A DNA stretch of 64,000 nucleotides. It comes from Cephalotus follicularis. Taxonomy: Eukaryota > Streptophyta > Magnoliopsida > Oxalidales > Cephalotaceae. The notes beneath the pieces are model-generated. The model made no database searches and was not told the DNA's origin. It saw nothing but the letters and a program-made list of their open reading frames with translations. The stretch is from NCBI GenBank assembly GCA_001972305.1, contig BDDD01000557.1, forward strand, positions 124,001-188,000, written 5' to 3'. Made by a program: the position numbers and the translations under genes. This document shows positions 286 to 60,254 of this stretch, in pieces (the first letter of the stretch is position 1; the number at the start of each line of letters is the position of its first letter).

Positions 286-656
286 GCATCGATTGCAAGG
301 AATAAAGCGTCGATAGATTAGTATAAAGCACCAACGGTTACATTAAGCGTCGAAGGAGGCCTCAAAGCATCGACTGACCGGACAAGGCAAAATGGCTTAA
401 GCGTCGATGGTTCCACATGAGCGACGACGCTTTGGTAGTAAACCGATGACGCTTGGGTAGCAAATAACAGAGCTTTAAACTAGTGCGTTTTCGTCTTGGC
501 AACACTCTCAACCGATGACGCTTCGCTTGAAAGCGGAAACGCTTTGTGTAAACTGGCGACGCTTCAATTTCAAGCGTTAGTGCTTAACCTGTGTATCAGT
601 CGAAGAACCTTTGACAAAGCTTGTAAGCGGCGACGCTTGATGCAAAGCGCCGACGC
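286..656 (+). repeat. Phased GTCGAC box array in G1 5' LTR
   Basis: About 15 ten-base boxes related to GCGTCGACGC, such as gcatcgattg, gcgtcgatag, gcgccaacgg and gcggcgacgc. Most are separated by 9-12 unrelated bases, so box starts recur every 19-22 bp. Spacers tend to begin tt and end aaa, extending the palindrome. Confidence 0.85.
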
Positions 657-897
657 TTTGGACTGCAGATCAGCTGCAAAATCTAACTTCTGTCTTTTTG
701 CGAATCAATTACACTAATTAGGGGACACGTGTCAAGCCAGAGAGTGATGACACAAGATATTTTAATGTTAGGAATGAGGAAAAGGACAAGTGTCATTATA
801 TTGGAGAGAGAGTGTGTGTGTCATAACGAAGAGATGACATCATATGGGAAGGTGGCATGGTGACTCATTATGCAAGCTTGCACCCCAAGTTTCTCTC

Positions 898-899
<2 letters not shown>

Positions 900-942
<43 letters not shown>
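900..942 (+). repeat. (AC)n microsatellite
   Basis: About 21 uninterrupted AC units inside the G1 5' LTR. The matching place in the 3' LTR has CT and TA tracts instead (8044-8120). Confidence 0.98.
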
Positions 943-944
<2 letters not shown>

Positions 945-2182
945 GTATATATGTTAGTAGCTTTGGCCTGACAAGAGGTTGTTTTTTGCTGAGTTTGCTA
1001 GGATTAATTCAGCTAAGAGAAGAAGAGAAGGAGATTAAAGCAAAGTAAGGAAAATTTCTACCCCTTTTATGCTAAAGTTTTCTTCTGATATTTCTGGAAA
1101 TTATGCAGCAGAATGTTTTAATCATATCTTCTTCGTTTCTTAATGAAAATTTGAATGGTTGAATGTTTTGGAAACCTTAAGATGTTTTCTAAAACTGTTA
1201 TGTTTTGTATATTTCGAATTTCTGTCAATTTCTTGACGAAACTCTATATTTAAAATTACTGCTCGTATTCTGCTGTCATATGGAACCTGCAACTTTAAAA
1301 ATGCATTAAGCTTCGTTTCTCAATGAAAAATTATGAACCTTATCTTTCTGAAATATTTGAGACGTCTACTATAACTTTACTGTTTTATGTTTTCTTTGAA
1401 AATGAATGTTTCTATATGTAATTTAAGTTTTACAAATGTTATACGATACTGTTTTTATGAATACCTTGAGCTGATCACTCAAAATATTGAGAAATGATTT
1501 TACGAAATGAGAAAAGGTAATGAACTGAGATGAACAACTCTTGGACTGAGATCCAAAGAGGAATAATGGAGCGGAGAGTGCTCGTAGACATGCATGTGAA
1601 TGATAGTAATCGGGGAGTTCACAAGGCCCCGGTGAAGAATGGTTCAGTTGGGTTCTTTAAGTTTATATAACCCCTAAGTTATTTATGAAATGTTTCTGAT
1701 TCATTAGATATGATCAGAAGATGAATGTGATGAAGTATTTATTTTAAACCCTTACTGAGCTATTTTGATGCTCATTCCTTTCAATGTTTTTGTTTTCAAA
1801 TAAATTTTCAGGAAATGATTGAATGTGAAAATTCGAGCTTTTGAGGGAGCTCATAAAAGAAGCTTTGGAAAGGAATTATGTTTTGTATAAACTGCTTTTC
1901 ATGTAACAAGTAAATGTTTTCCGCAGTGTAATGTGTTATGTATTTATATATGTAAGATGTTGACAATGAACATTATGGTTTATGATGTTCTCAAATAAGA
2001 ATATAATGTTAGGAGTTAGTATTGAATGTGATGAGACATATTTGAGATTATGAGCATTTAATGATAAATGTAGCAATAAGTAGGATTATTAAAGTGGTTA
2101 ACGATTACACCCCATGTAACGCACTAGATCCTCGAGGCTCGCATTGAGCTTTAGTAAACTCGGATCGGGGGCGTTACAAGAA

Positions 2183-2193
2183 TGGTATCAGAG
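2183..2193 (+). promoter_or_regulatory. G1 primer-binding site (initiator tRNA-Met)
   Basis: TGGTATCAGAG, four bases after the 5' LTR, is complementary to the 3' end of plant initiator tRNA-Met. This is the usual primer for minus-strand synthesis in these elements. Confidence 0.9.
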
Positions 2194-2252
2194 AATTGAA
2201 TATTGCTATATTTTGAGGATATAAATTGTGTATTTGCTAACCTGATTTTCAG

Positions 2253-3850: not shown

Positions 3851-3899
3851 GCACCGGCTAGGACATATGCTATGACAGCTATTGAGGTGGAGAATCCTA

Positions 3900-7285: not shown

Positions 7286-7323
7286 GGCTGCTGTGTAACA
7301 AATTTTGAGGACAAAATTTTTGT

Positions 7324-7449: not shown

Positions 7450-7808
7450 GCGTCGACCACAAGGAATAAAGCGTCGACAAATTAGTATAAAGCGCCAACG
7501 GTTACAGTAAGCGTCGAAGGAGGCCTCAAAGCGTCGACTGACCGGACAAGACAAAATGGCTTAAGCGTCGACGGTTCCACATGAGCGGCAACGCTTTGGT
7601 AGTAAACTGATGACGCTTGGGTAGAAAATAACGGAGCTTTAAACCAGTGCGTTTTCGTCTTGGCAACACTCTCAACCGACGACGCTTCGCACGAAAGCGG
7701 CAACGCTTTGTGTAAACTGGCGACGCTTCAATTTCAAAACCTATGTATCAGTCGAAGAACCTTTGACAAAGCTTGTAAGCGGTGACACTTGATGCAAAGC
7801 GCCGGCGC
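7450..7808 (+). repeat. Phased GTCGAC box array in G1 3' LTR
   Basis: Counterpart of 286-656 with the same phase. Several boxes keep CG where the 5' LTR has CA or TG, for example gcgtcgactg against gcatcgactg, so this copy shows the original box better. Confidence 0.85.
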
Positions 7809-9786: not shown

Positions 9787-9983
9787 TGTTCACGCGTTTA
9801 GAATGTTTTAAAATTTAAACCGCAAGTGAACGGTTGTACAGTAACGGGTCGAACGCTAGGAAACACCCTAAATTAATTTTAATCTATCAAACCTAGGGGA
9901 AGTATGAAAAATTGAGGTCCAATTATGAAAACTACTCCTAAAACATGTAAAACAAACTAATTAATTTGAAATAGGAACTGAAG

Positions 9984-10044
9984 GCGTCGACGCTTTGTCA
10001 CTAGGCGTCGTCGTGAATACTGGGAATAATGAAAGCGTCGATGC
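9984..10044 (-). repeat. GTCGAC boxes near the 3' side of the split X LTR
   Basis: gcgtcgacgc, then gcgtcgtcg 21 bp later, then gcgtcgatgc just before the G2 insertion point. The next box lies just beyond G2, at 17816. Confidence 0.75.
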
Positions 10045-11179
10045 TTAAGTTGTCACACCCCGCCTTTAAATTCCATTACATTTAGACAACATATGTGGTG
10101 ATATCAGGAATAAGTATAATAATTCAGCATTCTAATTAACAAATCAACAATATAAGCGGAAGCATTTAAAACTGGATTACAACGTCATCCGCACGCAACC
10201 CATACTACGTGCGTATACAATCCATCAAATTATCCTTATACATAAGGAAAGGTAAAACAACAACGGAGTGCGAACCGTTCATTACAAATACAAATCATAA
10301 GGATAACAACCTTAAGCAGAATAGAAACTCTCCAAAAGCTTCAGCAGCACTCCACGAACGCCCTTGCTTAATCTGAAATTGTAGGGGGTTAGCCGTTGTC
10401 CTCACTTGGCTAAGTAGGAAGATAAAGCATGTAATTGAATCTATAAATGTAAATATACATGACAGTTTAAATGAAATGACATATATATATATATTCCAAT
10501 ATATACGCAATCATGCCAAATGGCCATAGACAGTACAATGCAAGAATACCGCACAAGGGTACAATCAATTAGTTTAGTGGTTTGGGTGTCACATATCGCA
10601 ACTCCTAGCACCAACTGTGCACCACTTATCTATCACCCTTCACTCCGAAGATGATAGATCAGGTCAGTTACTACCGGCATTAGCGGGTAGTTTAACAATC
10701 AAGATCTGTATTGCAGACAGTTTGCGTGGATACTCTAGCCAACTCCTGGCACATAGGACCACCTCCGTAGCCAGTGATGTCTCCTATCACTCGACTAACG
10801 ACAATAGCATAGACAAACAGTTCAATCAATTCAATGACAATATTACATATATCTATAATATGCAATATAACGGTAGTTTTCATTTTTAGGAAACATAATA
10901 ATTCAGTCAGTGGTTCTCTTGGAGAACAAAACGATACAGTACCTCTTGTAGAGGAATATAGCAATTGTATACAATAAGATTTTCTATATGAAATCCGTTG
11001 TTAAAAATCATTAATTATGCTCAAAGCATTAAGTTGGTAAAATCCTTGGATATATATATAACAGTAGTAATTTCATTAAATAATAGTAACAATAGTTACA
11101 TTATAGCAGATCAAGGATAATTGCAACCATAATCAAGTCAATCAATCAATCTGAACATTTCTATAATTACTGTTCTAAA

Positions 11180-11326
11180 GCGTCGACAGTTTCTGTGTAA
11201 GCGTCGACGGTTGTTATCTAAGCGTTGACACTACACGCAAGATCAAAGCTTAAGCGTCGACATTCTAAGCCTTAACAGGAGTTTCCCAAACCAAAGCGTC
11301 GACGTTCTTAACTTAAGCGTCGGCAA
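11180..11326 (-). repeat. Phased GTCGAC box array 1, G2 3' LTR
   Basis: gcgtcgacag, gcgtcgacgg and gcgttgacac follow at 21-bp steps. Later boxes gcgtcgacat and gcgtcgacgt are 42 bp (2 x 21) apart, and gcgtcggcaa comes 21 bp after that. Confidence 0.85.
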
Positions 11327-12275
11327 TTCTGGCATTCTTACGAATTCCAGGTGCAATCATCAAAAAAGGGGATGCACAAAATCAACCCAAACTCAGTTCA
11401 ATTCAACATGCAATCAAGTATTGACCATCACTACACATTATACATGTTATATGTTCAAAAACATGTCAAAAACCCCTACCCCAATCGCTATCCCGAAATC
11501 AATTGGAATTGATTTCTCTCTTTATGTCCAATGTTCTTCACCCTTCTTCAATATTCCAAAATTGCAGAATTAATCTACATAATTGCATGTTTACAGGTTT
11601 TAGATACGAATCCAGTGCGTTAAGCTAGTTATCTAACCATGACAACATCAAGGAATTGAATCAGAAGCTTATCATTAGTTCTATGTCTCATCTCCATGTA
11701 CAATTTTAATAAATCACGTTCTAACTCCTAGGTTTCCTCTATAATTGTTTGTTAACAGAGAATATGTATAGCTAATCATCAAAAATGATACATCCCTACA
11801 ACCTTAACTATATCAAGGAACTCGGATTAGTAACTTACCAACTTCCAGGTGATGATCCAATTTCAATTCTTTTGAACTTTAAGCTCCTTCAACCTCTAGC
11901 AATCTTCCAACAATTGTCCAGGTTGTCTCTCAATCTCTCAGTGTTTTCTAACACTCTCATCCAATCTCTCACAGTTGGTATAAAAAGGTCAAAAGCGTGT
12001 CCTTCATTTTGCCAGATTCCTCCAACCGTCAAGCACATTTCTCTCTCCCTCATGCATGCACTCTTCCTTTTGTTCTTTTCTTTGTTTTCTGGCAGGTTGC
12101 AGGTTGCAGGCTTTTAGGTCACATGCAAGGCTTTATCCTTGCATGTTACCTAGCTGGTGAAGGCTTTTTTATTGCATGGCTAACACGTCTATGGACACAT
12201 GCCCATGTAACCATTATTTAAACTCTGTCATTCCATTCCAACTGACACATATCTTTGCGCTAGAACACGTCTAAA

Positions 12276-12428
12276 GCGTCGTCGGTTTTATCGTGGGCGT
12301 CAACACTTATACGCCTTTAAGCGTCGATGCTGGGCGTTTAAAGGTCTACGGTTTGGCGCCTTAACTCAGCCTTCAACTGTGCGTTCTGTGCACGTGTCTG
12401 GGCTTAAAGCGTCAACGGTATGACTTTA
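12276..12428 (-). repeat. Phased GTCGAC box array 2, G2 3' LTR
   Basis: gcgtcgtcgg and gcgtcaacac are 21 bp apart; gcgtcgatgc, aggtctacgg and gcgtcaacgg follow. This lies near the outer end of the same LTR, almost 1 kb from array 1. Confidence 0.8.
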
Positions 12429-12583
12429 GGCGTAGCACCATAAGTTTATTTCTTTAGTTTTCCCTCTAAGAATTTTATTCCAACTTCGTTCTATTTTAAA
12501 AGGTAACCATCATAACATCTCAAAAAGTACATTTTATTCATCGTTGGGTACAAAATACATGAATGGAAATTGCGGTTATTACA

Positions 12584-12602
12584 TTCCCCCCTCCTTAAAG
12601 AA
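12584..12602 (-). promoter_or_regulatory. G2 polypurine tract
   Basis: On the minus strand a purine run (ctttaaggaggggggaa) follows the TTTGAGGACGAATTTTC motif and ends exactly at the 3' LTR. Confidence 0.85.
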
Positions 12603-12624
12603 AATTCGTCCTCAAATTTAGCCT

Positions 12625-15600
12625 TTACATTCCGAACAAGTGGGGAAATGTCTCTATCATTTCATCCTCACGCTCCCACGTAGCTTCCTCTGCTCCGTGA
12701 AAACGCCACAGTACTTTTACCATAGGAATAGTCTTATTCCTCAGCACCTTCTCCATTCGATCCACTATCCTCGTCGGCCTCTCTTCATAAGACAATCTAG
12801 GACTGATGAATCCAGGGTCGTAGCTCAATATGTGAGATGGATCGGGTACGTATTTCCATAACATGGAAACATGAAATATGTTATGCACATCCGACAGACT
12901 AGGAGGTAGTGCAATCTGATATGCTACATCCCCCACTCTTTCCAGTATCTCATAAGGTCCAATATACCTCAGAGCCAACTTCCCTTTGAGGCCAAAACGG
13001 TGTATCCCTTTCGAAGGCGAGATCTTCAGGAAAACATGATCCCCCTTCTCAAACTCTAGCTTCCTCCTCTTGCTATCGGCGTAACTCTTCTGCCGACTTT
13101 GTGCAGCTAGCAGTCTCTTCTTGATGATTTCCACTTTATTGGTCGTCTCTTGAACCAAGTCCGGTCCCAGTACTTGTCTCTCACCTACCTCGTCCCAACA
13201 AATAGGTGATCTGCACTTTCTCCCATACAAATCTTCATCGGGAGCCATTCCAATGCTGGTGTGAAAACTGTTGTTGTAGGAGAACTCAATCAACGCCAGA
13301 TGATCCTCCCAACTCCCAACAAAATCAATCATGCAAGCCCGTAGCATATCCTCCAGAGTATGAATAGTATGCTTGGACTGTTCGTCAGTCTGTGGGTGGA
13401 ATGCAGTGCTAAAGTTCAAGGTTGTTCCCATTGCTGCTTGGAACTTCTTCCAGAACCTTGAAGTAAATCTAGCATCACGGTCACAAACAATACTGACCGG
13501 CACCCTATGCAATCTCACTATCTCCCAGATATACAATCGAGAAAGCTTCTCCATAGAATACGTCATATTCATCGGAAGGAAGTGAGCAGACTTAGTGAGT
13601 CTGTCCACTACTACCCACACTGCTTCATGCTGATTCTGTGACCTCGGTAATCCTGATACGAAGTCCATGGTCACATGCTCCCATTTCCATTCAACCACTG
13701 GTAACGATTGTAGCAGTCCCGCAGGTCTCTGATGTTCAGCCTTCACTCTCTGGCAGGTCAAACATCTCGCTACATATTCAGCAATCTCTCTTTTCATACC
13801 ACTCCACCAGTAGTTCTTTTTCAGGTTGTGCCACATCTTGGAACTTCCCGGGTGAACACTGTATTTTGACTTGTGGGCTTGTTGCAGTAGCTCATTCTTG
13901 ATGCTCTCGTCATCCGGAACACATATCCTTCCTCGGAACCTCAGTATGCCATCAGTATGAATGGAGAACTCAGAATCAGAGTCTAGGTTCTCAAGAATAC
14001 TCCATAACTCAAAATCACTGTACTGAGCAGTCAGAATACGTTCCAGAAGTTCCGGTTGTGCTCTCAGGTTTGCCACAATAACTCCACGGGAAACCACGAA
14101 CGGATTCTATCTCTGAAATTCCTCCAATAGCTTCTAATGTGAGAGAATTGCTCCAGCAATCATTTCCTTATGGCTCAGTGCATCAGCCACTACATTCGCC
14201 TTTCCCGGCTGGTATTGAATGTTGCAGTTGTAATCGTTAAAGAATTCCACCTATCGTCTCTGTCTCATGTTGAGCTCCTTCTGGGAAAACAAATATTTTA
14301 AACTCTTATGGTCAGTAAAGATCTCAAATTGAGCACCATAGAGGTAGTGCCTCCATTTCTGCAAAGCAAACACTATGGCTGCCAACTCAAGATCGTGTAC
14401 GGGATAATTTTCCTTGTACGGCTTTAACTACCTTGACGCGTATGCAATCACCCTACCATGTTGCATAAGAACGCATCCCAACCCCGTCCTAGAACCATCA
14501 GTATAGACAGTAAAACCCTCATTGCCTTCCGGTAACGCCAACACCGGAGCCGAAATCAACCGACTCTTCAACTCTTGGAAACTTGCCTCGCAAGCATCAT
14601 CCCACACAAAACTTGACTTCTTCTGAGTCAACTGTGTCAAAGGTGCAGCAAGCTTTGAAAACCCTTTGATGAACCTTCGGTAGTAACCAGCCAATCCCAA
14701 GAAACTACGAACCTCAGTAACGTTTCTCGGTTGGGGCCAATCAACAATACTCTCTATCTTCGAAGGATCCACTGACAATCCTTCACTCAACACAATGTGA
14801 CCTAGGAAGGTCACATGATCCAGCCAAAATTCGCACTTGCTGAATTTGGCGTATAATTGTTCCTTCCGTAGTGTCTGCAATACAATTCTCAAGTGCTGCA
14901 TATGTTCCTCAATGCTCTTCGAATAAATCAGGATGTTGTCTAGGAATATAATGACAAACTGGTCAAGATAGGGTTGGAACACTTTGTTCATCAGACACAT
15001 AAAGGCTGCAGGAGCATTTGTCAAACCAAACGGCAGTATCAGGAATTCGTAATGCCCATATCTGGTTCGAAATGCGGTCTTCTCCACATCACCCTCTCTG
15101 ATCCTCAACTGATGATAACCTGTTCTCAGGTCAAGTTTGGAGAATACAGTAGAGCCTTGCAATTGGTCGAACAACTCCTCAATATGTGGCAGAGGATACT
15201 TGTTCTTCACCGTTACTTGATTTAGTAGCCTATAATCAATGCATAACCGCAACGATCCATCCTTCTTATTCACAAACAGAAACGGTGCTCCCCAAGGTGA
15301 TACACTCGGCCTGATGAAGCCCTTATCAAGGTAATCCTGTAATTGAATCTTCAACTCCTTTAGTTCAGCAGGAGCCATTCGGTACGGTGCTTTAGATATA
15401 GGAGTAGTTCCAGGCAATAGTTCAATGCTGAACTCTATATCTCTCTCCGGTGGCAACGATGTGAGTTCATCTGAAAATACATCAGGAAATTCATATACAA
15501 CAGGCACTTGTTCAATACTAGGCGTACCTTTCGTATGATCAATCACATACGCCAAATAGCCCTCGCATCCTTGCTTGAGATACTTCTGTGCTCGAGTATA

Positions 15601-15993
15601 TGAAATGATCAGAGCAGAAACATTCTTCTCCCCGATAAACTTGCACTCAGTCCCATCTTGAAGGTAAAATGTCATCATCTTATTGTAGCAATCAACACAA
15701 GCATGATGAGCATACAACCAGTCTATTCCCAAGATTACATCGAAATCCCGGATAGGTAATACTATCAAGTCAGCAGATAACTGAATCCCAGCTACCATGA
15801 TCTCACAATCTTTCATTACAGTGTCAGATAGAAGACAAGTACCTGTAGGAGTACTCACCTCCAATACATAAGGCAGTCTAGAAGTAACACCATGCAAGTT
15901 GCAAGCAAATTCAGATGCAATAAATGAATGTGTCGCACCAGGGTCAATCAATACATGAGCTAGTATGCCAGATATATAGATAGTACCTCCCAC
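12625..15993 (-). pseudogene. G2 pol: PR-RT-RH-INT-chromodomain
   Basis: On the minus strand. Protease is at about 15640-15990 ([24 protein letters not shown]). Reverse transcriptase is at about 14870-15420 ([37 protein letters not shown]). RNase H is at about 14200-14600 ([16 protein letters not shown]). Integrase is at about 13200-13990, with zinc finger (VHPGSSKMWHNL...CLTCQRVKAEH) and catalytic segments (VTMDFVSGLPRS, VCDRDARFTSRFWK). The chromodomain is at 12630-12830 (MVKVLWRFHGAEEATWE). Two long stretches are still open, so it has few breaks compared with G1. It is closely related to G1 pol but clearly a different family. Confidence 0.9.
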
Positions 15994-16059
15994 AACAGTA
16001 GTAGATTATGGCACATTATCTTTAGATAAGGTGTAGACCCTACCTTTCACAATCCCTTT

Positions 16060-16222
16060 CCCGGTATCCTTCGCGGTTGAGCAGCCGCAACACTACCACT
16101 TGCACCAGCACTTCCCTGTTGGCCACGTGCTTGATCCCTCATCATAGGACAACTGTTCAGCATATGTTCTTGTGAACCACACCTCAAGCATTTCCCCATC
16201 TTTTTCCAGCACTCAGTCTCAT
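16060..16222 (-). pseudogene. G2 gag remnant (nucleocapsid knuckle)
   Basis: Only the C-terminal end of gag remains, with one CCHC knuckle, CLRCGSQEHMLNSC, and a Gln/Ala/Gly-rich tail leading into protease. The rest of gag is missing; at about 16222 the sequence passes straight into the middle of the 5' LTR. Confidence 0.8.
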
Positions 16223-16388
16223 TTTATGCTCAAAGCATTAAGTTGGTAAAATCCTTGGATATATATATAACAGTAGTAATTTCATTAAATAATAGTAACA
16301 ATAGTTACATTATAGCAGATCAAGGATAATTGCAACCACAATCAAGTCAATCAATCAATCTGAAAATTTCTATAATTACTGTTCTAAA

Positions 16389-16535
16389 GCGTCGACAGTT
16401 TCTGTGTAAGCGTCGACGGTTGTTATCTAAGAGTTGATACTACACGCATGATCAAAGCTTAAGCGTCGACATTCTAAGCCTTAACAGGCGTTTCCCATAC
16501 CAAAGCGTCGACGTTCTTAACTTAAGCGTCGGCAA
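16389..16535 (-). repeat. Phased GTCGAC box array 1, G2 5' LTR
   Basis: Counterpart of 11180-11326 with the same 21-bp steps. Confidence 0.85.
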
Positions 16536-17487
16536 TTCTGGCGTTCTTACGAATTCCAGGTGCAATCATCAAAATAGGGGATGCACAAAATCAACCCAAA
16601 CTCAGTTCAATTCAACATGCAATCAAGTATTGACCATCACTACACATTATACATGTTATATGTTCAAAAACATGTCAAAAACCCCTACCTCAATCGCTAT
16701 CCCGAAATCAATTGGAATTGATTTCTCTCTTTATGTCCAATGTTCTTCACCCTCCTTCAATCTTCCAAAATTGTAGAATTAATCTACATAATTGCATGTT
16801 TACAGGTTTTAGATACGAATCCAGTGCGTTAAGCTAGTTATCTAACCATGACAACATCAAGGAATTGAATCAGAAGCTTATCATTAGTTCTATGTCTCAT
16901 CTCTCATGTACAATTTTAATAAATCACATTCTAACTTCCAGGTTTCCTCTATAATTGTTTGTTAACAAAGAATATGTATAGCTAATCATAAAAAATGATA
17001 CATCCCTACAACCTTAACTATATCAAGGAACTCGGATTAGTAACTTACCAACTTCCAGGTGATGATCCAAGTTCAATTCTTCTGAACTTTAAGCTCCTTC
17101 AACCTCTAGCAATCTTCCAACAATTGTCTAGGTTGTCTCTCAATCACTCAGTGTTTTCTAACACTCTCATCCAATCTCTCACAGTTGGTATAAAAAGGTC
17201 AAAAGTGTGTCCTTCATTTCGCCAGATTCCTCCAACCTTCAAGCACATTTCTCTCTCCCTCATACATGCACTCTTCCTTTTGTTCTTTTCTTCGTTTTCT
17301 GGCAGGTTGCATGTTGCAGGCTTTTAGGTCAGATGCAAGGCTTTATCCTTGCATGTTACCCAACTGGTGAAGGCTTTTTTTTTTTGCATGGCCAACACGT
17401 CTATGGACACATGCCCATGTTACCATCATTTAAACTTTGTCATTCCATTCCAACTGACACATATCTTTGCGCCAGAACACGTCTAAA

Positions 17488-17651
17488 GCGTCGCCGGTTT
17501 TATCGTGGGCGTCGACGCTTATACGCCTTTAAGCGTCGATGCTGGGCGTTTAAAGGTCGACGGTTTGGCGCCTTAACTCAGCCTTCAACTGTGCGTTCTG
17601 TGTACGTGTTTGGGCTTAAAGCGTCGACGGTATGACTTTAGGCGTCGGCGG
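17488..17651 (-). repeat. Phased GTCGAC box array 2, G2 5' LTR
   Basis: Counterpart of 12276-12428, less worn: gcgtcgccgg, gcgtcgacgc, gcgtcgatgc, aggtcgacgg, then gcgtcgacgg with gcgtcggcgg 21 bp after it. Confidence 0.85.
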
Positions 17652-17982
17652 TTTAGCACCATAAATTTATTTCTTTAGTTTTCCCTCTAAGAATTTTATT
17701 CCAACTTCGTTCTATTCAAAAAGGTAACCAACATAACATGTCAAAAAGTACATTTTATTCATCGTTGGGTACAAAATATATGAATGGAAATTGCGGTTAT
17801 TACATAAGTATTGGGCGTCGACGGTTATGCTACTGGTTGGAAAATATCATAATTTAAAGCATACAAATTGAAAACTAGTCTAAGCAAACAAATAAACTAA
17901 CTGAATTATATAAGAGAAAAAGCGGTTTCGTGGTATAGAAACTCACCATAGATTATATTGAACAATTCACTTACTTGATTGC

Positions 17983-20289: not shown

Positions 20290-21557
20290 TGTTGGAAGTC
20301 TAGAGGGGGGGTTAATAGACTTATAAAAATTTATCTAGCAAATATACCACCAATAAAATTAATTACTCAAACACACAAAGCGGAAAGTAAAGAGTTTAGG
20401 GTTTAGAGATTGCAAACGAATATATAGTGGTTCGGTAAACCGCCTACGTCCCCTCCCCAAGGCCTCCCCTTGAGTATTCACTAGGTATGCCCCAATCCGG
20501 GCTTGGAACTCCAACCGAGCTCCAACACTTTCGCTCCAACCAAGCGAATTACAAATGTGCTCCAACCGAGCAATACAAGAGACAACCTCTCTTGTATGAG
20601 TGAAATAAGTTTTTAAGTGTTTACAAATTCGTATTGAATTTGTTTACAATGAAACACAACTCTAAACAAAGCTTGTAATAAATGTGGAATGTAAAGAACA
20701 AGGCTTTGTAATGTAAATGATTTGCTTTGAAATGATCTCTTTTGATTGTGTGAATGCTTGGTATTGTTCTTGAGATAGCTTGATAGAATGTGTAACTTGA
20801 AAGCTTGATCACTTGTGCAAGATGTCCAATTTTCCTCTTATAGTTGAGCCTCTAACGGATCTATTTTTAACTGTCTGATACAAATCCAGTCGGCTGGATT
20901 CTGACGGCAGTCAGCTGGTTTGATTGCGCGTTTATTTTAATATAGCCGTTGGGAGTGGGCAGTCGGCTGTATCATGTAGGCAGTCGGCTGGATGTCTGGG
21001 CAGTCGACTGATGCCCTGCTTCAGTCGGGTGTTGAGGCTAATTTGGAAGTTACAAAACCTACTGCCAGATTTTGCACAATTGAAGACAGTTGGCTGGACC
21101 CCTGTGGCAGTCGACTGGACCCCCTGGCAGTAGACTGTTCCCCTGCTATAGTCGGCTGGATTGGGTGTGAAATGATACAAAAGCTTCTGCCTGAAATGTA
21201 CCTCATGGCAGTCGACTAATGCCCTGTGACAGTAGACTGGAATTGCCTGGCAGTCGACTGGATTTGCCCGGCAGTCGACTGGTGTGCTATTTCTGCAGAT
21301 TCTGGGTTTTGGTTGAAGATGCAGTCGACTAACAACCTTTGGGAGTCGACTCCTAGCCTTGGCAGTCGACTGGATTTGGTCTCCAGTCGGCTGGAATTGC
21401 CTGTATCTGCATAAACACTCTTGGCACAACTTTGGACAAAGAATCAAGTGAGTAAATACATTTACAACTTAAAGAATTATGCATCCAAGTAATTTACGTT
21501 TGTTAATCATCAAAATAACATGTGGTAAACATTTAATCGGGGTGGCAAAGGCCAACA
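20290..21557 (-). repeat. Copia A 5' LTR
   Basis: On the plus strand it runs from TGTTGGAAGTCTAGAGGGGG to GGCCAACA, about 1.27 kb, the form of Sirevirus LTRs (C-rich tract and CTTCCAACA before the primer site). tatagtggttcgg (20420-20435) is shared with the other Sirevirus-like LTRs in the window. The box array fills 20887-21393. Confidence 0.88.
20887..21393 (-). repeat. Phased CAGTCGACTG box array in Copia A LTR
   Basis: About 18-20 boxes of the palindrome CAGTCGACTG or its variants CAGTCGGCTG and CAGTAGACTG. Almost all steps are 20 or 21 bp; one run is cagtcgacta, cagtagactg, cagtcgactg, cagtcgactg at 21 bp each. The core GTCGAC is shared with the other arrays but the arms are CA/TG in place of GC/GC. 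Spacers are Gly-codon-like and C/G-rich but not conserved. Confidence 0.9.
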
Positions 21558-31463: not shown

Positions 31464-31544
31464 GGAAATGAATAATGTTAAGCTTTATCAAAACTTTTTT
31501 TAAAGAAAGAAAAAGATAGAATTGAAAAAGTTTCTATTGAGAAG

Positions 31545-35088: not shown

Positions 35089-35216
35089 GCGCTGACGCCT
35101 AGATTAAAAGCGTTAGCTGTTTGCACTACGATTCTAGGGCTAATATTGTGTAAAGCGACGTCGCTTTACGAAAAGTGTCAACGCTTTAGACGCGTTTTAT
35201 AATAAAAAGCGTTGAC
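35089..35216 (+). repeat. GTCGAC-type boxes between pol and the 3' gene of Copia B
   Basis: gcgctgacgc and gcgttagctg are 21 bp apart; gcgacgtcgc and gtgtcaacgc are 20 bp apart; gcgttgactg follows. Unlike the other arrays it is outside an LTR, directly upstream of the extra reading frame. Confidence 0.75.
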
Positions 35217-36575: not shown

Positions 36576-36589
36576 CTGCATTATCACAT

Positions 36590-37634: not shown

Positions 37635-37639
37635 CACAT

Positions 37640-38117
37640 CATCATTTTTGCATCTTCTTTATGTTTTGTAATTTGAAAAACTTGGATGATTTGTATTTGT
37701 TTGATGTTTTGTAAACAATGGATGTTTGGATGTTTTGAATGTGTTAAACTTTGAAATCGTTGGATGTATTGATTGAATGATTTGTTTTTACAATGATTTG
37801 AATGTCTCACACTTATTTGATATAATTTACTCTTACCTTTTTGATGTTATGCAAAAAATGGGGAGAATAGTAACTAAGTTGAAAAACGATACATAACCTT
37901 TGTCATACTAAGGGGGAGTATGCAAAGCAACCATTGTCATATTAAGGGTAGTATATTTGACTAAGGGGGAGTATAAATTTCAACTTACTTGAGTTCGTAT
38001 TTTATTCAATAAATGCACATATCGAATAATTTTAACTTACGAATTGTTATACTTTGATTGTTTTCAACTTATAATCATATTGTAGCAAATTTTTGTCATC
38101 ATAAAAAATAGGGAGAT
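37640..38117 (+). other. Copia B region before 3' LTR
   Basis: AT-rich, with repeated phrases of the type ggatgttt and ctaagggggagtat (twice, 37910-37975), the G-rich motif that commonly precedes the 3' LTR of Copia elements. It ends in the polypurine tract aaaaaatagggagat next to the LTR at 38118. Confidence 0.65.
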
Positions 38118-43119: not shown

Positions 43120-43369
43120 GGCATCAATCTAAAGAGAGTTTGGTGGCTTTCCCTTTACACGGTCAATTTACTTAGCACTTGCGTTAAGGTAGTTTACTTG
43201 CTTACTTGTTAAGGAGAAGCTTGCATTCTAGAAACGGTAGCTTTCGCGCCCTTCCTGCCTGCAACAATTGATATGAATGGCCATGACAACTCTTCAAATC
43301 AAATCCTATTTAGTCTGATTAGATATGTCATTGAAAAAATCCATTATGTCTCTTTTTTGTTTTATTTTC

Positions 43370-43530
43370 GGATTCAGAGGATGAGCCGGCCGATCCTAAC
43401 ATCATTTATGAGGAGTCCTCCTCAGATAAAGATGTCTCCGATGCTCGGCAAGAACAACTTTTTCTATGGTGAGTTTTTTAGCAGGCTCAGTCAAGAGGGG
43501 CAAAAGCAAAAGAGAGATGCTTTCTATCAG
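43370..43530 (+). other. Unrecognised open segment in NUMT
   Basis: Reads EDEPADPNIIYEESSSDKDV then SDARQEQLF, acidic and uncommon in composition. It may be the end of a mitochondrial gene or an open reading frame upstream of the nad1 exon. I do not recognise it. Confidence 0.3.
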
Positions 43531-43639
43531 TAAAAAGCAGATACCGCCCCTACTTCAATTAAAACATGCTCCCACGGTCTGTTTACTGAGGAATCAAAAG
43601 GGAGGACCTGGGGGCCAAAGCATGATGGGTGGGGGTATT

Positions 43640-43687
43640 GAGCCGTAAACGCGGTGGGGGGTGACAGAGAACGTGCTCGTACGGTTC
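43640..43687 (+). ncRNA. Group II intron domain V-like hairpin (3' half of nad1 trans-intron)
   Basis: gagccgt ... acggttc, the paired ends of group II domain V, lies about 55 bp before exon b. In plant mitochondria nad1 exon a is trans-spliced to exon b, and the 3' half-intron lies just upstream of exon b as here. The loop region is longer than the usual 34-nt domain V. Confidence 0.6.
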
Positions 43688-43739
43688 ATAAAAGGGTATG
43701 ATCAACTCGTTGATTGTTGGAAACTTTCACTCCTCTATA

Positions 43740-43821
43740 TTTAAAATATGCCTTTCTAGGAGCATTACAATTTGTAGCTCAAATGGTCTCTTATGAAGTA
43801 ACTATTGGTCTTATTCTTATT
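43740..43821 (+). pseudogene. nad1: nad1 exon b (mitochondrial NADH dehydrogenase subunit 1)
   Basis: 82 bp encoding [26 protein letters not shown], matching the membrane segment [26 protein letters not shown] of plant NAD1, a core proton-pumping subunit of complex I. The exon ends exactly at a group II intron start (gtgcgcc, 43822). Differences from the conserved exon at 43762-43781 are G-to-A and C-to-T transitions, as expected of a nuclear copy decaying after transfer. Alone in the nucleus it cannot be expressed as a complex I subunit. Confidence 0.85.
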
Positions 43822-44948
43822 GTGCGCCTTGTGAGTGCGTTTGGATTCGTGAAGGCAATCGCTCGGATGTTTCTCTAACCTAACACGAGAACGGACCGGA
43901 GGGAACCACAACATAGGGAATTTTCGCGTCTTATCGCAAAGCTCATTTTTAGTTGTGGGTCATAAAGCAGGCTTCGGGCGAGAAGCTTTATCTGATCAAG
44001 GTCGGGGCACAAGGGTCCTGATATTATCTACGTGCGAAGAACCTCAGAGGTGATTGCAATGACCAGAAATCTCACTCATCGGCCTAAACGACAAGCAAAT
44101 ACTCAAACGTGAGAGCATGGGATGACCCAATGAATGGACGAGCTCCAAGGTACGCAGTCACGCCGGGGCTTACGCTCCAAGGAGGGAGGAGAGAGGAGGG
44201 CAAGAACCATGGTTTCAGAGAAGTGGCAGTTCAAATCTTATCTGAATTGCGAGAATAACTGACTAAGCCGTGCCATAAGTAAGGGGAATTGTCAAACTCC
44301 TAACAGGACGATTTTAGGTTGTTTAAAGAGGTTGGGTGACAGATCGGCCTTAGGAGTACTCCGGGATATGAACCAGGGCAACAAACGTCAAGCATAAGAC
44401 GATGCCACCCATTTTCATTTCATGGAATTCCCCGGCAGAGGAAGGGCTGTAGGTGATGGCGCGTTTTTCTTCTTATCTAGAGATGGGCACTGAAATCGTT
44501 CCTATTGGGTCATGTGTGGGACCTAGTATAGATCAATAAAGGCGGGCCGCGAGACCTGTTCTCATAATAGGCGGCAAAGCTGAATAGGAAAGGGGTTGAG
44601 CTAACTGATGAGTGAGAGCCTTTTTCTAAAGGCCAAACTCTCATTTGAAGCTAACATGGCTGGCTATATACAAGTATAGACAAATCAAGATGAGATGGGA
44701 CGAATGATCAGAGGCCACAGTGGGACCACCATAGGAAAGCCCACCCCTGCTAGCTAACATCGAAATCTATTCTCGGACAGTAGAAGTCTCTATGTGAATC
44801 TCTTCCCGACGAGGCCAGGATGAATCGGGCCACCACTTGGGTTGAGAATGGCTTAGCCCATATGCATCATTTGATGAAAGCACTCCAGTCCATTCGCCTC
44901 CTCGACGCTTTCCCTCGCTCAAATAAACTCGAGCATTTGCGATTCTGA

Positions 44949-45446: not shown

Positions 45447-47610
45447 TCATCTGAGTTTGTATCCTCTTCTTATAAGAACTCGATGTAGGCATCTTGCGAT
45501 ATCCAATCTTTGAGGCAAACACACAATTCCAAGGATTTTGCACTCAAAGAAGTTTTTCAATGATCCAGTACGCAACCTACAGCTGAGAATGCAGTCTGCG
45601 ATGCAACCGTTGAAACTAGCAATGTTAACAGATCGCGTGCCATGGTTGAAAGAACTAGATATTGTTGAGTACGTGACTTCCACCAATCTAGCATATCTAT
45701 TTCATTTGCTTCTTCATTGGTCATGTAATGGGATGGGGCTATCTCATTTAGATATCGTTGAAGTTCATTATTCCTGGCGTTGCTAGAACTCCATTGCGAA
45801 CTTGAAGAAGAAGATGAGCTACCGAATGCTGACCGCATAAGGGAAGAGAGGCTTTTACTCTTACCCTTATCCAATGAAGAGGCATGCACTTGTAGTTGCT
45901 GTGTTTGGTAGTTGGTCTTTAGAACATATATGTTGAACATTTGTTGCAAATTTTTCAGTATTGACTCACTGTTATGTTCAACAAACTGGACATTCTACGA
46001 CAAAGCATCTTTGATTAATTGCAGTGTGTGCATTAGCCCCTGAATGTTTTTTTTTGGATCAACAACTACAGGTAGCATAATGTTCTCGAAATACTGTAGG
46101 AATTTTTTGAGCATGAATTTGCACATCAATTTAAACCGATCGTCATCCTTGTACTTTTCAAAAATATTGCATATCCCATAAAGCTCAAAAACTACAAGGT
46201 TAGTTGTCACGTAATACTGTCCAGAAAATAACTTTTTCAGGTCATTGAATTTACTAAAAAAATTTACAACCATGAAGCAATTATCCTAATCTTGTTCAGT
46301 GCAGTAGTATTCCTACGCGTTAGAAGAACAAAATGCAGACAAAGGGTGCCTATATTCATATGCCAGTTTACACATTTCATAAGTTGAATTCCATCTATGT
46401 TGCACATTTATTATAAGTGTTTTATATTTTAAACCATGTTCATGAAAAATCCTTCTAAATTCTTGATTTCTTATACTAAAGTTTTTTATGTGCAGTATAA
46501 AGTTCCTAATGCTGTCAATAACATGTTGTACAGAATTTAAAACGTCCTTAACAATAAGATTGATTATATGACAGACACACCTAATATGAAACGATGCACA
46601 TCCAAAATTGGATTAAATTTAGCCTTTAGTAATGGTATAGTCTGCGTGTTGTTTGTGGCATTATCAAAACTAATACAAATTTTTTTATTGAAAATAGCAT
46701 ACTCCCTTGTTACTTGTTCTATTGCTTGGGCAATATCACCACTAGTGTGAGGGTGCTCAAAGGGACAAAATAAAAGAATTCTTTTCTGCAAATGCCATTT
46801 ACTGTCAACATAATGTGAAGTAACACAGATATATGGAGATCCGTTGGTACTGGTCCATGCATCATATGTCAATGCAACAGTATGCACATCTTTGAATGAT
46901 TCAATTAATTGACGCTTTTCTCGTGTAAATTTTAGCTCACAGTCTTGCTTGAAAGTTTGGCTAGAAATCATACGAGCACATGGATTTACTCTGGTTGTTA
47001 CTCAATCCTGAAATATTGGATGATCAACTGCACTAAACGGTAATTCCATGCATATGATAAAATTAACTAGTTTTTCCCAGTGTGAAGCATTTGAGAATTA
47101 AAGGTGTTAGACCCGGCACCAGTACCAGTGTTATCGTCTTCAACATCCATAACAATTCCATGTTCCGATAAACAAGAAATTAAATGTTTCCTATAGGTAC
47201 CTGTACCATCATTTTTAATATAAGCATAATGTTTTAAATTACATAATTTGCACCATAATCGTGTTTTACCATCGATTTTCCGAAGCTCCATATATTTCCA
47301 CACAATGAGGAAGCTCTTTTTTTTTACCCCGGGGACTAGTAACGACAACTGGTTTGTTTACTTGTTCTTGCGGATCGGTCATTCCAACTACAACAGCATC
47401 GGACGATCTCTCATCATCGTTTGCAAGGTTGTGTCACGTCGAGCGTTGAAAAAACGATCGAAGTTATCATCGTTCATTCCCTGCATAGAAAAATAATCAT
47501 CAAGTGGCTGGCTGAATTCAGGATCGTAAGGTTGATGTTGTGTCTCTATCCATTGAACTTCGCCATGTTGGTATAGGTCACCAAGTTCTTGTTCAAAACA
47601 TTGTCACAGT
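45447..47610 (-). pseudogene. hAT transposase, decayed
   Basis: On the minus strand. A lead-in (about 47480-47590) reads HGEVQWIETQHQPYDPEFSQPLDDYF. The BED finger is at 47067-47348 (VWKYMELRKIDGKTRLWCKLCNLKHYAYIKNDGTGTYRKHLISC; Cys-Cys-His-Cys pattern). The catalytic part is at 46564-46971 (VALTYDAWTSTNGSPYICVTSHYVDSKWHLQKRILLF; SFDNATNN). The C-terminal hAT dimerisation region is at 45500-45760 (MARDLLTLLVSTVASQTAFSAVGCVLDHG). The frame is interrupted by several stops and shifts, for example between the catalytic part and the C-terminus (about 46270-46560). It would cut and paste hAT DNA if whole; this copy is dead. Confidence 0.82.
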
Positions 47611-53876: not shown

Positions 53877-53878
53877 TA

Positions 53879-56716: not shown

Positions 56717-57560
56717 TGTAACACCCCGCGCCCGCAGGGCGGACATGTGGCATTACTCTCAATCCAATATACAATACAATGGTCGGGACTAGCAATATAA
56801 AAATACGGAAAACTTTAAAACTTTGCAATACATATCATCTGCGGAAGATACAATACACTGATCCATACATAGGATGCAATACAATACAAATCCTTTACAA
56901 TACAAGTCTTTTACAATACATTATCAATCTTTCAATACAATATTTCAATGCAATACATTCCAATTTCCACTACCATGTCTCACAACCAGCTCCGCGGTAC
57001 CCAAGCAGTCATGCGATCAATCAAGTCTTCAGTCCTTCTGTTCACTGCTACATGCTGCCCTACCTATGTCGCACACAAAGGTACAACACAGCCCCACCCC
57101 GAAGGATGGGGTTAGCCACACTGGCTAAGCAGAAACCTCATGCAGTATGTATGCATGTACAATGTGTAATATCGGTGACAATCTATACAATATCAATGTA
57201 CGGTGTACAATATCAATGCATGACATGGAAAATGCATGTGTACAGTTGGCGATCAAACTACCCGTATGACAATGGCCTAGAACAGAGCATATGGATAGGA
57301 TCTATAACTATCAATCAATCAATCAATCAATAGCAGACATTCGATGGTGGTGTATGTTTAGCATAAAAATGTGTTGTTTCTAATGCGTTATTTGAGATAT
57401 TTTTAAGCTTGGAATAGACTACTTTGGTTGTGTTATATTGATTTTCAGGTACAAGTGCAAAATGACCAAAGTGCAAGAATACTACCTAAAAGTGTGCAAA
57501 TTGAAACTTTAAAGTGTAAAGATTGAAGAATGGACAAATTCGGCAGAAAAAGATCCAAAC

Positions 57561-57848
57561 GCGTCGATGTCTATAATAAACATCGATGTCTTTTCTGGAT
57601 TTCAACAATAGCGTCGACGTCTTTTGTTAGAAGTCGACGTCTTTTCTGGGCAATACAAAGAGCTATGAAGGAGGGATCGACGTCTTTCAAACAAGGGATC
57701 GACGTCTTTGTGCAAGATCAAGCTGTAACTTTTGGGCCAAAAGGGATCGACGTCTTTAGTCACGAGGATCGACGTCTTTCACACGCATCTCAGCAAGACG
57801 CGACTTTTACAAGAAGACATCGACGCCTTTCGAAAGAAGTCGACGCCT
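57561..57848 (+). repeat. Phased GTCGACGTC box array in solo X LTR
   Basis: gcgtcgatgtc, acatcgatgtc, gcgtcgacgtc, gatcgacgtcttt and agtcgacgcc, mostly in pairs with steps of 19-22 bp. The arms differ from those of the other X copy (GCGTCGACGC), so the arms changed within one family while the core and spacing stayed. Confidence 0.85.
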
Positions 57849-58241
57849 TCCTCTGCAGCAGAAATAGAAAGATTAGATTTTTGCCAGATTTTGTAACTAG
57901 GATTACTTTATTTTCGTTTTTGATCAGTTTTGAAGTATATAAACAACATATGGCCGGCCAAATCAGGTATGTAGAGTAGTAGAGAGGTTGTAAAAACCCT
58001 AATTTCTTTCATCAATTTAGTTTTCTTTCACAATGTTTAGTAGCTAAACTTTTTAAGGTTTTGGGGAAGAACAAAGCCTAGATTGTTATTGTTTCAATTC
58101 CATCAATAAAAATCCTTGAATATTTGATTTGTTCTTCAATATTTCTGCCTTCGCACACATTTTGTCTGTCTGATTAAAATCTACAAACATCTTGTCAGTG
58201 AAGCTGAAAGTTGGTGAATAAATGGTGCTTAAATCAATGGA

Positions 58242-58416
58242 GTCTACTCATAAGTCTACTCATACGATTTGTCGCAAAGAACACACTTCGTATAGACCTA
58301 GCATGTCTACTCATACGTCTTGCCGCCGTTATCATGCCGTACTTCGTATAGACCTAGCATGTCTACTCATACGTCTTGTCATCACCGCCACACTCCGTAT
58401 AGACCTAGCTGCCGCT
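58242..58416 (+). repeat. Minisatellite of X LTR (51-56 bp unit)
   Basis: Three units of gtctactcatacg...cgtatagacctagcat plus a short partial unit. Also seen reversed at 21558-21725. Confidence 0.85.
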
Positions 58417-59088
58417 GATTATCAAGGTATGATCGTTCAACTTCATGGAATTGTTCAATACAATCTACGGTGAGTTTCTAAACCCCAAAACCGCATTTTA
58501 ATTATATCTTTTCTTAGCTTTTATTCATTAGTTTGATAGTTTATCTTGAAATTGGTATACTTCGCCTAGGTTGGATAGATTATAACTAGTCTACGTTTCC
58601 CTGTGTTCGACCCGTTACTGCATGATCCGTGCACTTGCGGCAATAAATTTTAAAACATTCTTTTTACAGTGAACAGTGTATAAAACACCCAATCAATCAA
58701 TCAATATGCTATAGAGCATGCGACCGGTGTCAATACAATGTCAATAAGTTATCAATGATCAATCCCACGGAAGGTAGTCCTTCAAAAACGGTGGGAGATC
58801 TATCTACGGTTCTCAGATTGATCAGGTCTGGAACGCATAGATCTTCCAGCCTATGGCTGGGCCAATACAATCTTGATGAGCTACAACTGAGGGATCTACT
58901 GATGCCATCAGGGATCTACGGCCCTCAGCGAGCGTCAATCGTCAATCAATCGTGCTCGTCAGCACATGCTCGTTAGCAAGACAATACAATAAAAGAAACG
59001 ATCGACGGAATAGGTGGACAAAGTCAACCTAACATGCCGACGTAAACCACAAGGTCGCTCTATAGGATCCATACAATACAATACAATC

Positions 59089-60254
59089 TGTTGACATTTA
59101 TGTCTTAATCCTAGTTTTGATGATAAAATATTTGTGTTTAACCAAGTTTCTTTATGTGCAAGAAAAACATGGAATGCGCAAAACAGCAAGAAAAATTGCA
59201 GAAACAGGATAAAGCGTCGACGCTCAGAAATAAAGCGTCAGCGCTTTGTGCAACAGTCGAGACAATGAACAAAGCGTCAAACGTTGAAGCGTTCGGAGGA
59301 GAGGAACAAATGTTCAAACCATCGATGCCTAATTAGAAGCGTCTGTGCTTCAATTCAGAGCGTTAGCGCTTTGAGACCTCAAGTCAGCGCTTAGAAACAG
59401 AGACTTCTTGGATCCAATCAATTTGACAAAAGCGGCAACGCTCAACACTAAGCGTCAGCGCTTTGAGGCAACAGTCGAGTCCTACATCCAGAACGCCTGC
59501 GCTTTGACTCGACAAATTCAAATTAAAATACCTAACGGTCATATAAGCGGCGACGCTTTGATGGAAACAGTCGATGCTTTGCACGGCTGAAAATAATTCT
59601 GACAGAGTTTTAATGCGCCGTTTTTTATACAACAAGTTTCAAGACATACCCAACGGATCTCTGAGGCAAGAAAGATATATATACAAAGGTTTTTTGAAGA
59701 GAGATAAGAAGAAGAACACAAGTGACATCAAATACAAAGATCATTCAAGAAAACATACTACAAGCATTCAAAATCAAGAAGTTCTATCAAAAAGCTCTTA
59801 TCTAGTATCTTATCAAATATTTGTTCCCAATTAGATTGAGTGATTTCATCTTGTAAAATCTAACCTCTGAGAGGTTTAGAACAAAACTTCATTCTATTTA
59901 CTTTGATTGTAATAGGGGAGTGAACCCTAAAAGAAATTGGGGAGTGAACCCAAAGAGAGTTGTAAGTGATTGAGGTCAATCACAAATGTGTACCGAATAG
60001 CACCCGGAATTGTATTCGGAGACTAGTGGAAACTCAAGGAGATCCTTGGGAAAAGTGGAGGTAGGCAAGAGTTACGCCGAACCACTCTAAAACCGTGTTT
60101 GCAAATTCTCTAACCCTCTCTCTTTAAATTTGTTTACTTAGTTATTGTTAATTGCACATATATATTGTTCATTGCTTTTTAACTTAAAATTGCAAAAAGT
60201 TAATTAATTTTTTAGAAACTACAATACATCCCCCCCCCCCTTGTAGTTTATTCA
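59089..60254 (+). repeat. Copia C 5' LTR
   Basis: TGTTGACATTTATGTCTTAATCC to CCTTGTAGTTTATTCA. Same plan as Copia B LTR: box array, TATA-like atatatacaaagg (about 59680), ggaggtaggcaagag...gaaccactcta, C-run. Confidence 0.92.
59214..59577 (+). repeat. Phased GTCGAC box array in Copia C LTR
   Basis: gcgtcgacgc and gcgtcagcgc are 21 bp apart; gcgttagcgc and aagtcagcgc 21; gcggcaacgc and gcgtcagcgc 20; gcggcgacgc and cagtcgatgc 21. Confidence 0.87.

Follow-up and report, generated by a model that had tools for sequence, protein, structure and literature searches.

Helically phased arrays of palindromic boxes in LTR retrotransposons of Cephalotus follicularis, candidate operators for a VANC-like element-encoded protein

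Long terminal repeat (LTR) retrotransposons in a 64-kb window of the Cephalotus follicularis genome (64,000 nt, contig BDDD01000557.1, positions 124,001-188,000) carry arrays of short palindromic boxes, which tend to share one face of the helix and are most often spaced two turns apart. All counts given here refer to this one window. The arrays are probably operator arrays for a DNA-binding protein, whichever protein that may be. The whole explanation we favor, with a probability of roughly 45%, is that they would be bound by a VANC-like PF20167 protein which the elements themselves encode.

Enrichment and sequence of the boxes

LTR retrotransposons are densely packed in this stretch of plant DNA, and the array-bearing elements are numbered E1 to E10 (Table 1). 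One gag protein has at least 120 matches; in the top 60, at 52-89% identity, every legible organism name is Cephalotus follicularis, and the 12 relatives of another ORF all come from this species. An earlier note on this DNA had listed 16 arrays of boxes with a GTCGAC core. Clustered boxes are present in all 16, and GTCGAC occurs 46 times against 4.8 expected. Matches of at least 12/16 to AAAGCGTCGACGCTTT number 83, whereas ten Markov shuffles gave a mean of 1.5 and a maximum of 4, and perfect 10-bp palindromes centred on CG occur 24 times, where 20 shuffles averaged 7.25 and never exceeded 11; where an element has two LTR copies, both enter into these three counts. At a threshold of at least 10/16, where the background is about 80 matches per 64 kb, 15 of the 16 arrays hold 4 to 14 boxes of the GCG type and the remaining one holds 17 boxes of the CAG type. 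The list had missed a further array at 9981-10040 plus 17815, which is split by an insertion at 10051-17804.

The boxes had been described as 10 bp long and separated by about 11 bp of unconserved spacer. However, in 82 GCG-type boxes picked by a 16-bp consensus (E3, E8 and E9 left out) the column information is high across 16 bp and low outside. As this set was picked by the same consensus, the analysis was repeated with 58 sites picked by the central TCGA alone, in which the arms are informative to position 8 on both sides (0.14-1.03 bits per column, with the lowest values at +5 and +6), and columns outside the arms hold 0.01-0.12 bits. The conserved unit is thus 16 bp and not 10 bp, and the spacer therefore measures about 5 bp; that it is unconserved was confirmed by the flank comparison described below.

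The box type varies by family, with CAGTCGACTG at 20887-21393 and ATCGACGCC or ATCGACGTC at 55 and 57 kb. Family versions are GGCAGTCGACTGGA in E3, AAGACATCGACGCCTT in E8, AAGGGATCGACGTCTT in E9, TAAGCGTCGACGCTTA in E4, and AAAGCGTCGACGGTAT together with GAAGCGTCAGCGCTTA in E5, and several Sirevirus-like boxes are centred on TCAG or CTGA. The consensus is a dyad, yet many single boxes are imperfect and many keep just one strong half-site. A general left-to-right polarity of the half-sites was considered and dropped, since only E1 and E6 show it clearly, E5 and the nested LTR show it less, and rho averages -0.20 over eight arrays (p 0.067), or -0.08 (p 0.31) when E6 and the nested LTR are removed. 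The half-site patterns of close box pairs followed no simple rule.

Spacing and helical phase

For the spacing analysis one LTR copy per element was used (the 5' LTRs of E1 and E5 and the 3' LTR of E2 were dropped and E10 was left out), which gave 12 non-redundant arrays with 115 boxes and 103 neighbor gaps. A recurrence every 20-21 bp had been counted by hand, and it holds: 61 of the 103 gaps measure 19-22 bp (38 are 21 bp and 18 are 20 bp), against a mean of 15.6 and a maximum of 28 in 2000 random placements. Without any box definition, the pooled base-match autocorrelation of the 12 arrays peaks at lag 21 with z 6.3, the next highest lags being 20 and 112 (z 2.3). Taken one by one, 11 of the 16 arrays peak at a lag of 20-22, and E7 is near-flat (lag 21 z 1.5). 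Sites picked by TCGA alone have 17 of 48 neighbor gaps at 19-22 bp. With a single generic consensus, settings that leave more than six gaps of 12-60 bp place 47-90% of them at 19-22 bp; the 10-mer at its two strictest settings gives only 2/6 and 1/1. Five control palindromes at three thresholds yielded 0 to 3 gaps of this size each (highest 3/8), and when 1423 six-mers were ranked by their neighbors at 19-22 bp the top five were all derived from the box.

A strict 21-bp unit is not supported, as the all-pairs period of 21 is not significant (0.082 vs 0.059 in the null, p 0.29), whereas a period of 10.5 is significant (0.382 vs -0.007 in the null). The all-pairs scan has a second peak near 22.75 bp, which is outside the helical model. 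Longer gaps cluster near 31, 42, 51 and 72 bp, with gaps of 31, 50-54 and 71-73 bp being common. The 38 gaps of 27-110 bp have a 10.5-bp component of 0.29 (p 0.004; p 0.006 to 0.011 with some arrays dropped) and a best period of 10.3 (p 0.008 to 0.034), and 27 of them are on-face, where about half are expected. Odd-turn gaps are as frequent as even-turn gaps. Since the null for these gaps allows a jitter of at most five bases, the long-gap phasing is modest evidence. Phasing seems to be set by the helical turn and not just by a distance of 21 bp. The two-turn phasing on one DNA face that had been proposed is borne out by the gap analysis together with the long-gap period of 10.3-10.5 bp.

The odd-turn gaps also bear on a reading at the RNA level, in which the palindromes would form hairpins or duplex RNA feeding small-RNA silencing. 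This was proposed for the maize Sirevirus palindromes, which are small-RNA hotspots (PMC10760457, PMC5311732). Four arrays of the window were folded and all beat their shuffles (z -2.4 for E1, -5.6 for E4, -3.4 for E9 and -4.8 for E5); however, such a folding energy is expected from any palindrome array. As odd-turn gaps match even-turn gaps in frequency, there is no 21-nt register. The arms of a box do not covary, with 4.957 of 8 positions paired vs 4.996 when the right arms are shuffled within arrays (p 0.75; p 0.43 with G-U pairs). Picking by consensus could hide covariation, but the sites picked by TCGA only agree (3.086 of 6 vs 3.029, p 0.29). That many boxes have one strong half-site only speaks against hairpins as well. 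RNA hairpins under selection are thus not supported by the box arms and we consider this reading improbable; hairpins may be a side effect of operator boxes.

Divergence and age of the arrays

Between arrays, the four-base flanks of the boxes have an identity of 0.25, where 0.251 is random, and the box cores an identity of 0.54, compared with 0.66-0.68 within arrays. One satellite copied across families with conserved spacers, the outcome named beforehand as contradicting the idea, is therefore excluded within the window. Because the spacers are unrelated and the arms do not covary, the arrays are phased DNA sites and neither one satellite nor conserved RNA hairpins.

E4 and E9 belong to the same LTR family, and their arrays (422 and 288 bp) consist of different boxes and can be aligned only poorly. 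Identical columns per 100 amount to 81 and 67 before the array, to 44, 32, 33 and 28 within it, and to 73, 46, 74, 82, 62 and 71 after it. The E2 insertion (10051-17804) splits the older Athila-like array of E10 and is flanked by a perfect 5-bp target site duplication (TSD), TAAGT, at 10046-10050/17805-17809. When the E10 flanks are rejoined, the box centres are 21, 30 and 21 bp apart, and the phase of E10 thus predates the insertion of E2.

Comparison of the LTR copies of one element showed that the density of CpG-context sites in the arrays is 3.7 to 8.5 times that of the rest of the LTR. In E1 there are 76 such sites in 363 aligned bp of array vs 38 in 1548 bp elsewhere in the LTR, in E5 69 in 495 bp vs 29 in 763 bp, and in E2 74 in 337 bp vs 32 in 1241 bp. 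This density would fit a landscape of CpG-dense promoter chromatin, in which three CpG per full box every two turns would serve methylation or nucleosome positioning and the boxes would not be sites for one protein. However, 16 bp of specific sequence including the A/T arms are conserved, which CpG spacing does not require, and the E3 array has 19 CpG in 507 bp, yet gives the strongest single-array signal at lag 21 (z 5.0). We give this reading a slim chance.

The CpG transition fraction in the arrays is 0.14 in E1, 0.23 in E5 and 0.05 in E2, that of CpG sites outside is 0.11-0.14, and other substitutions in the same comparison lie at 0.03-0.08. Array CpG thus decays about like other CpG sites. 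As array CpG mutates after insertion and boxes are nevertheless kept in several families, selection acting on active copies is suggested. This also argues against a neutral origin, in which functionless arrays would stem from tandem duplication or from one satellite copied between elements. TRF does report short tandem repeats of 20-22 bp in E1, E2, E3 and E8, and similarity is higher between neighboring spacers than between distant ones in E3 (0.39 vs 0.28) and, from few pairs, in both E2 clusters (0.44 and 0.50 vs 0.33 and 0.29). However, over all arrays adjacent boxes are barely closer than distant ones (core identity 0.679 vs 0.663), and the random spacer identity between arrays is difficult to reconcile with a common satellite. 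A neutral origin is highly improbable.

Position of the arrays in the elements

In LTR sense, 8 of the 10 LTRs have an array window that starts 94-180 bp from their presumed start, the starts of E3, E4 and E9 being approximate. In 5 of 10 LTRs the window ends 81-108 bp before a TATA motif (E4 81 bp, E9 81 bp, E5 108 bp, E6 91 bp and the presumed nested LTR 105 bp), and the E1 3' LTR has a TATA-like run 271 bp after the window. E2 has a looser TATA match only, found by eye, and its second cluster is located downstream. In E3 no TATA[AT]A was found within 450 bp, with a looser match by eye only. E7 and E8 depart from the pre-TATA placement, the E7 array lying downstream of the first TATA-like site.

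All arrays had been assigned to LTRs, which is correct for most of them, but the cluster at 35089-35216 is internal to E5 and upstream of an open reading frame (ORF). Its box centres lie 119-239 bp upstream of the ORF in the envelope (env) position, which starts at 35333; this arrangement was seen in one element only.

The occurrence of arrays in different kinds of Gypsy and Copia LTRs is supported by the Pfam domains of the carrying elements, which assign E1, E2 and E7 to Gypsy and E3, E5 and E6 to Copia. The finer names Tekay-like, Athila-like and Sirevirus-like are our own reading of sequence features. E1 and E2 are called Tekay-like for an SH3_Tf2-1 domain, a weak chromodomain in E2 (Chromo match in pol, E 0.0043) and their LTR and polypurine tract (PPT) ends. 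E4, E9 and E10 are called Athila-like for a TTGGC-type junction at E10, which we take to be typical of such elements, for E9 and E10 LTR ends that are alike by eye, and for the E4-E9 alignment. That the LTR families share nothing else was too strong a statement, as self-BLAST relates the array-bearing LTRs at 29 and 59 kb and also those at 22 and 57 kb; E6 is 77-82% identical to E5 in the aligned pieces.

The env-position protein

E5 has the Sirevirus traits of multiple PPT copies, a polyC LTR end, an env-position ORF and Copia gag and pol, with the domains Retrotran_gag_2 and RVT_2 besides the PF20167 ORF. PPT-like AAGGGGGAG is found at 37911 and 37964, and CCCCCCCTCCCC at 30017. The E5 copy of the env-position ORF is broken by frameshifts and stops. 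A structure model was read from a full-length relative of this ORF, P0144, and in a PDB search with this model the closest entry to the tentatively predicted fold was VANC21. A first model of the ORF family (12 sequences, pLDDT 48.9) was too poor to be read alone, and in the first VIA list the remaining rows were matches to a long helix.

When the ORF family was searched against PDB sequences, nothing matched with E of 1 or below, and extending the limit to E 10 brought only two irrelevant rows. DUF1985 gave no row for any of the 58 family members at E up to 10, a search whose sensitivity is limited by the HMMER filters. Unlike a retroviral-type envelope, the relatives are without membrane segments, as 0 of 25 full-length relatives reach a Kyte-Doolittle 19-residue score of 1.6, which is a hydropathy rule and not a dedicated predictor. 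In a scan of viral contigs two patterns hit 8 loci, none with an array, and these are therefore chance matches; searches there with the E5 reverse transcriptase (RT) and with E2 pol found no relatives.

Elements of the window

Self-BLAST identified three LTR pairs, E1 (from 172 and 7336), E2 (11008-12584/16219-17805) and E5 (28759-30017/38117-39374). The ends of the E1 5' LTR are TGTAATGACC...GCGTTACA, followed by TGGTATCAGAG. E3 was recognized as Copia and Sirevirus-like by a polyC signal, a primer binding site (PBS)-like end, a Copia gag and Pol_BBD. The presumed nested solo LTR had no BLAST match at the cut-off used.

Table 1. Array-bearing elements, box arrays and the env-position ORF, in window coordinates.
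Feature	Start	End	Strand	Basis
E1 5' LTR, Tekay-like Ty3/Gypsy; array 286-656	173	2178	+	self-BLAST LTR pair; boxes
E1 3' LTR, aligned part, end truncated; array 7450-7808, 14 boxes	7337	9607	+	self-BLAST
E10 left part, Athila-like LTR array, cut by E2	9981	10050	-	TSD, joined flanks
E2 3' LTR, Tekay-like; clusters 12276-12428 (near LTR start) and 11180-11326	10051	12583	-	self-BLAST
E2 5' LTR, truncated; clusters 17488-17651 and 16389-16535	16219	17804	-	self-BLAST
E10 right part of the array cut by E2, box centre 17820	17805	17830	-	joined flanks
E3 array, 17 CAGTCGACTG-type boxes, Sirevirus-like Copia LTR	20887	21393	-	autocorrelation, gaps, box reading
E4 array, 11 GCGTCGACGC boxes, Athila-like LTR fragment	22110	22531	-	E4-E9 alignment, box reading
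E5 5' LTR, Sirevirus-like Copia; array 28881-29358	28760	30041	+	self-BLAST
E5 internal cluster, 5 boxes, upstream of env-position ORF	35089	35216	+	gap and ORF analysis
E5 env-position ORF, PF20167 (Transposase_32) family	35333	36571	+	Pfam, relatives
8-box array, presumed nested solo Sirevirus-like LTR (about 36560-37640) inside E5	37262	37519	-	LTR by eye
E5 3' LTR; array 38239-38715, 12 boxes; 274-bp tandem duplication included	38118	39670	+	self-BLAST
E7 array, 9 boxes, Gypsy element, LTR start about 48651 by eye	49499	49785	+	Pfam, gaps
E8 array, 6 boxes, ATCGACGCC/ATCGACGTC type, unclassified LTR-like sequence	55122	55252	-	gaps, box reading
E9 array, 10 ATCGACGTC-type boxes, E4-LTR homologue	57561	57848	+	self-BLAST, E4-E9 alignment
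E6 array, 11 boxes, 5' LTR of a second Sirevirus-like element	59214	59577	+	self-BLAST, gaps

Further features were noted in these elements and between them. Between its 5' LTR and gag, E1 has two small ORFs that overlap (2241-2637); they contain many charged residues and by eye resemble coiled coils. On its 5' side E2 has lost the LTR end and gag. A 75-bp tandem repeat (24173-24326) lies near a minus-strand Gypsy gag (23339-23938) adjoining the E4 LTR fragment. The gag regions of E5 (31542-31795) and E6 (61803-62125) contain 87-bp tandem repeats, the unit of which encodes a zinc-knuckle-like motif by eye, and the number of gag knuckles may vary. The tandem duplication at the end of the E5 3' LTR (39109-39656, 274 bp, 93% matches) has a single match in the 5' LTR. 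The region 43360-44930 has no recognized LTR features and, by eye only, an organelle-derived look. A minus-strand hAT transposase remnant occupies 45557-47001, with Dimer_Tnp_hAT at 45557-45994 and an ORF at 46564-47001 that has no Pfam match.

Relation to known systems

The system had been thought to be undescribed. However, the RM boxes of Sireviruses are a close precedent, the closest we found: according to their description (Bousios et al. 2010, PMC2829016) they are palindromic, CpG-rich and present in many copies in the upper LTR half before the TATA, with extra copies upstream of the env-position gene, and among the Copia elements tested they were Sirevirus-specific. E5 matches on all listed features and E6 and E3 in part. 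The palindromic copies, of which RM boxes have at least 8, number 12 in the E5 LTR, 11 in E6, 17 in E3 and 8 in the presumed nested LTR; the distances to the TATA are 108, 91 and 105 bp in E5, E6 and the nested LTR, and E5 alone has the extra boxes before the env-position gene (5 at 35089-35216, ORF start 35333). The RM box of Vitis, CGGTCGACCG, has the GTCGAC core in common with the boxes described here. The CGG-CCG core signature of RM boxes was not found in the window, where the types are AAAGCGTCGACGCTTT, GGCAGTCGACTGGA, AAGACATCGACGCCTT or AAGGGATCGACGTCTT; the description reports it to be missing from Tnd-1 as well, and it mentions box I of Tnt1 (PMC2829016). In the part of the description available to us, box spacing and helical phase are not mentioned (PMC2829016). 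Unlike RM boxes, which were reported as restricted to Sireviruses, the arrays of the window are also found in the Gypsy elements E1, E2 and E7 and in the Athila-like E4, E9 and E10.

LTR enhancer repeats such as Tnt1 BII and the Tto1 motifs are short repeated U3 cis-elements that recruit host factors. They are known in few copies and from one family each, and we know of no two-turn phasing in them.

VANDALs, which offer a second parallel, are DNA transposons. The targets of their VANC proteins are fast-diverging motif arrays (PMC5735166, PMC10398659). In both systems short motifs stand in dense non-coding arrays, also upstream of genes, and arrays and motifs diverge quickly among relatives; the DNA-binding protein is element-encoded there and putatively so here, where the tentatively predicted PF20167 fold is closest to VANC21 in the PDB search. 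In contrast, the VANC21 motif YAGTATTAY is given as non-palindromic and in one orientation, the PF20167 protein is without a DUF1985 match, and the arrays described here are common to several superfamilies.

In maize, one palindrome is common to Copia and Helitron elements (PMC10760457). The maize Sirevirus palindromes likewise form clusters in the cis-region of the LTR and share their motif with another superfamily (Helitron); they were read at the RNA level, whereas the boxes of the window show odd-turn spacing and no arm covariation. In the titles and abstract openings that were covered, a part of the literature, no mention of helical phasing of LTR boxes or of a VANC-like protein in Sireviruses was found. 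As far as our searches reach, three points are apparently new, namely that the boxes are helically phased, that Gypsy LTRs of this genome carry them too, and that the env-position protein has a possibly VANC21-like predicted fold.

Discussion

The arrays are best read as rows of roughly dyad-symmetric 16-bp sites on one helix face for a sequence-specific DNA-binding protein, which would bind as dimers that cooperate with their neighbors. Most of the sites occupy the LTR stretch from the 5' end to the TATA; one element has some immediately before the accessory gene as well. The most likely binder would be the product of this gene, a VANC-like, putatively nuclear PF20167 protein from the so-called envelope position of Sirevirus-like elements, and it would switch on the LTR promoter and its own gene or free them from silencing. 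Matching arrays would have been acquired by Gypsy families that lack the gene because these arrays permit use of the protein in trans. A VANC-like binder would explain the change of box version between and within families, the boxes before the gene and a possible convergence by free-riding. Of the three candidates named in the earlier note, a host factor, a silencing factor and an anti-silencing factor, the evidence leans to the last, short of proof. The most specific version, that the Sirevirus-like "envelope" gene encodes a VANC-like anti-silencing protein and that free-riding Tekay-like and Athila-like Gypsy families acquired phased arrays independently, appears doubtful to us at present.

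Alternatively, the arrays could be enhancers for a homodimeric host transcription factor that binds cooperatively and drives the LTR promoter, unrelated families having converged on its sites. Heat-responsive elements such as ONSEN have converged on heat-shock factor sites in this way. VOZ, TGA-bZIP, DOF and LOB-domain factors were considered as possible host binders, none of which we claim. The same phasing and dyad shape would fit such a factor, the array is upstream of the TATA in 5 of 10 LTRs, and stress-related factors were proposed in the 2010 description of RM boxes (PMC2829016). A host factor would directly explain the array of E1, but not the changes of box version: the arms differ by family (GCG, CAG and GAC types), which is a poor fit to a single conserved factor, and the homologous LTRs of E4 and E9 bear different versions. 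The internal cluster upstream of the VANC-like ORF is not expected either. We regard a host factor as possible, though on balance unlikely.

A host factor would also work for elements that lack the accessory ORF. One of these is E1, where pol and the 3' LTR leave no space for such an ORF between them, and on E1 an element-encoded binder would have to act in trans.

Even if a host factor is the binder, face-of-helix phasing across LTR families provides a concrete probe with which to purify it. Should an element-encoded protein use the arrays as operators, this would be one answer to the role of the env-position gene of Sireviruses and of the palindromic boxes near it. LTR retrotransposons would then have their own anti-silencing system of a kind so far known from Arabidopsis VANDALs, shared across superfamilies, and competing retrotransposon families would converge on one cis-code. 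Proteins that use phased arrays to locate silenced DNA, and perhaps to open it, would also form a new class.

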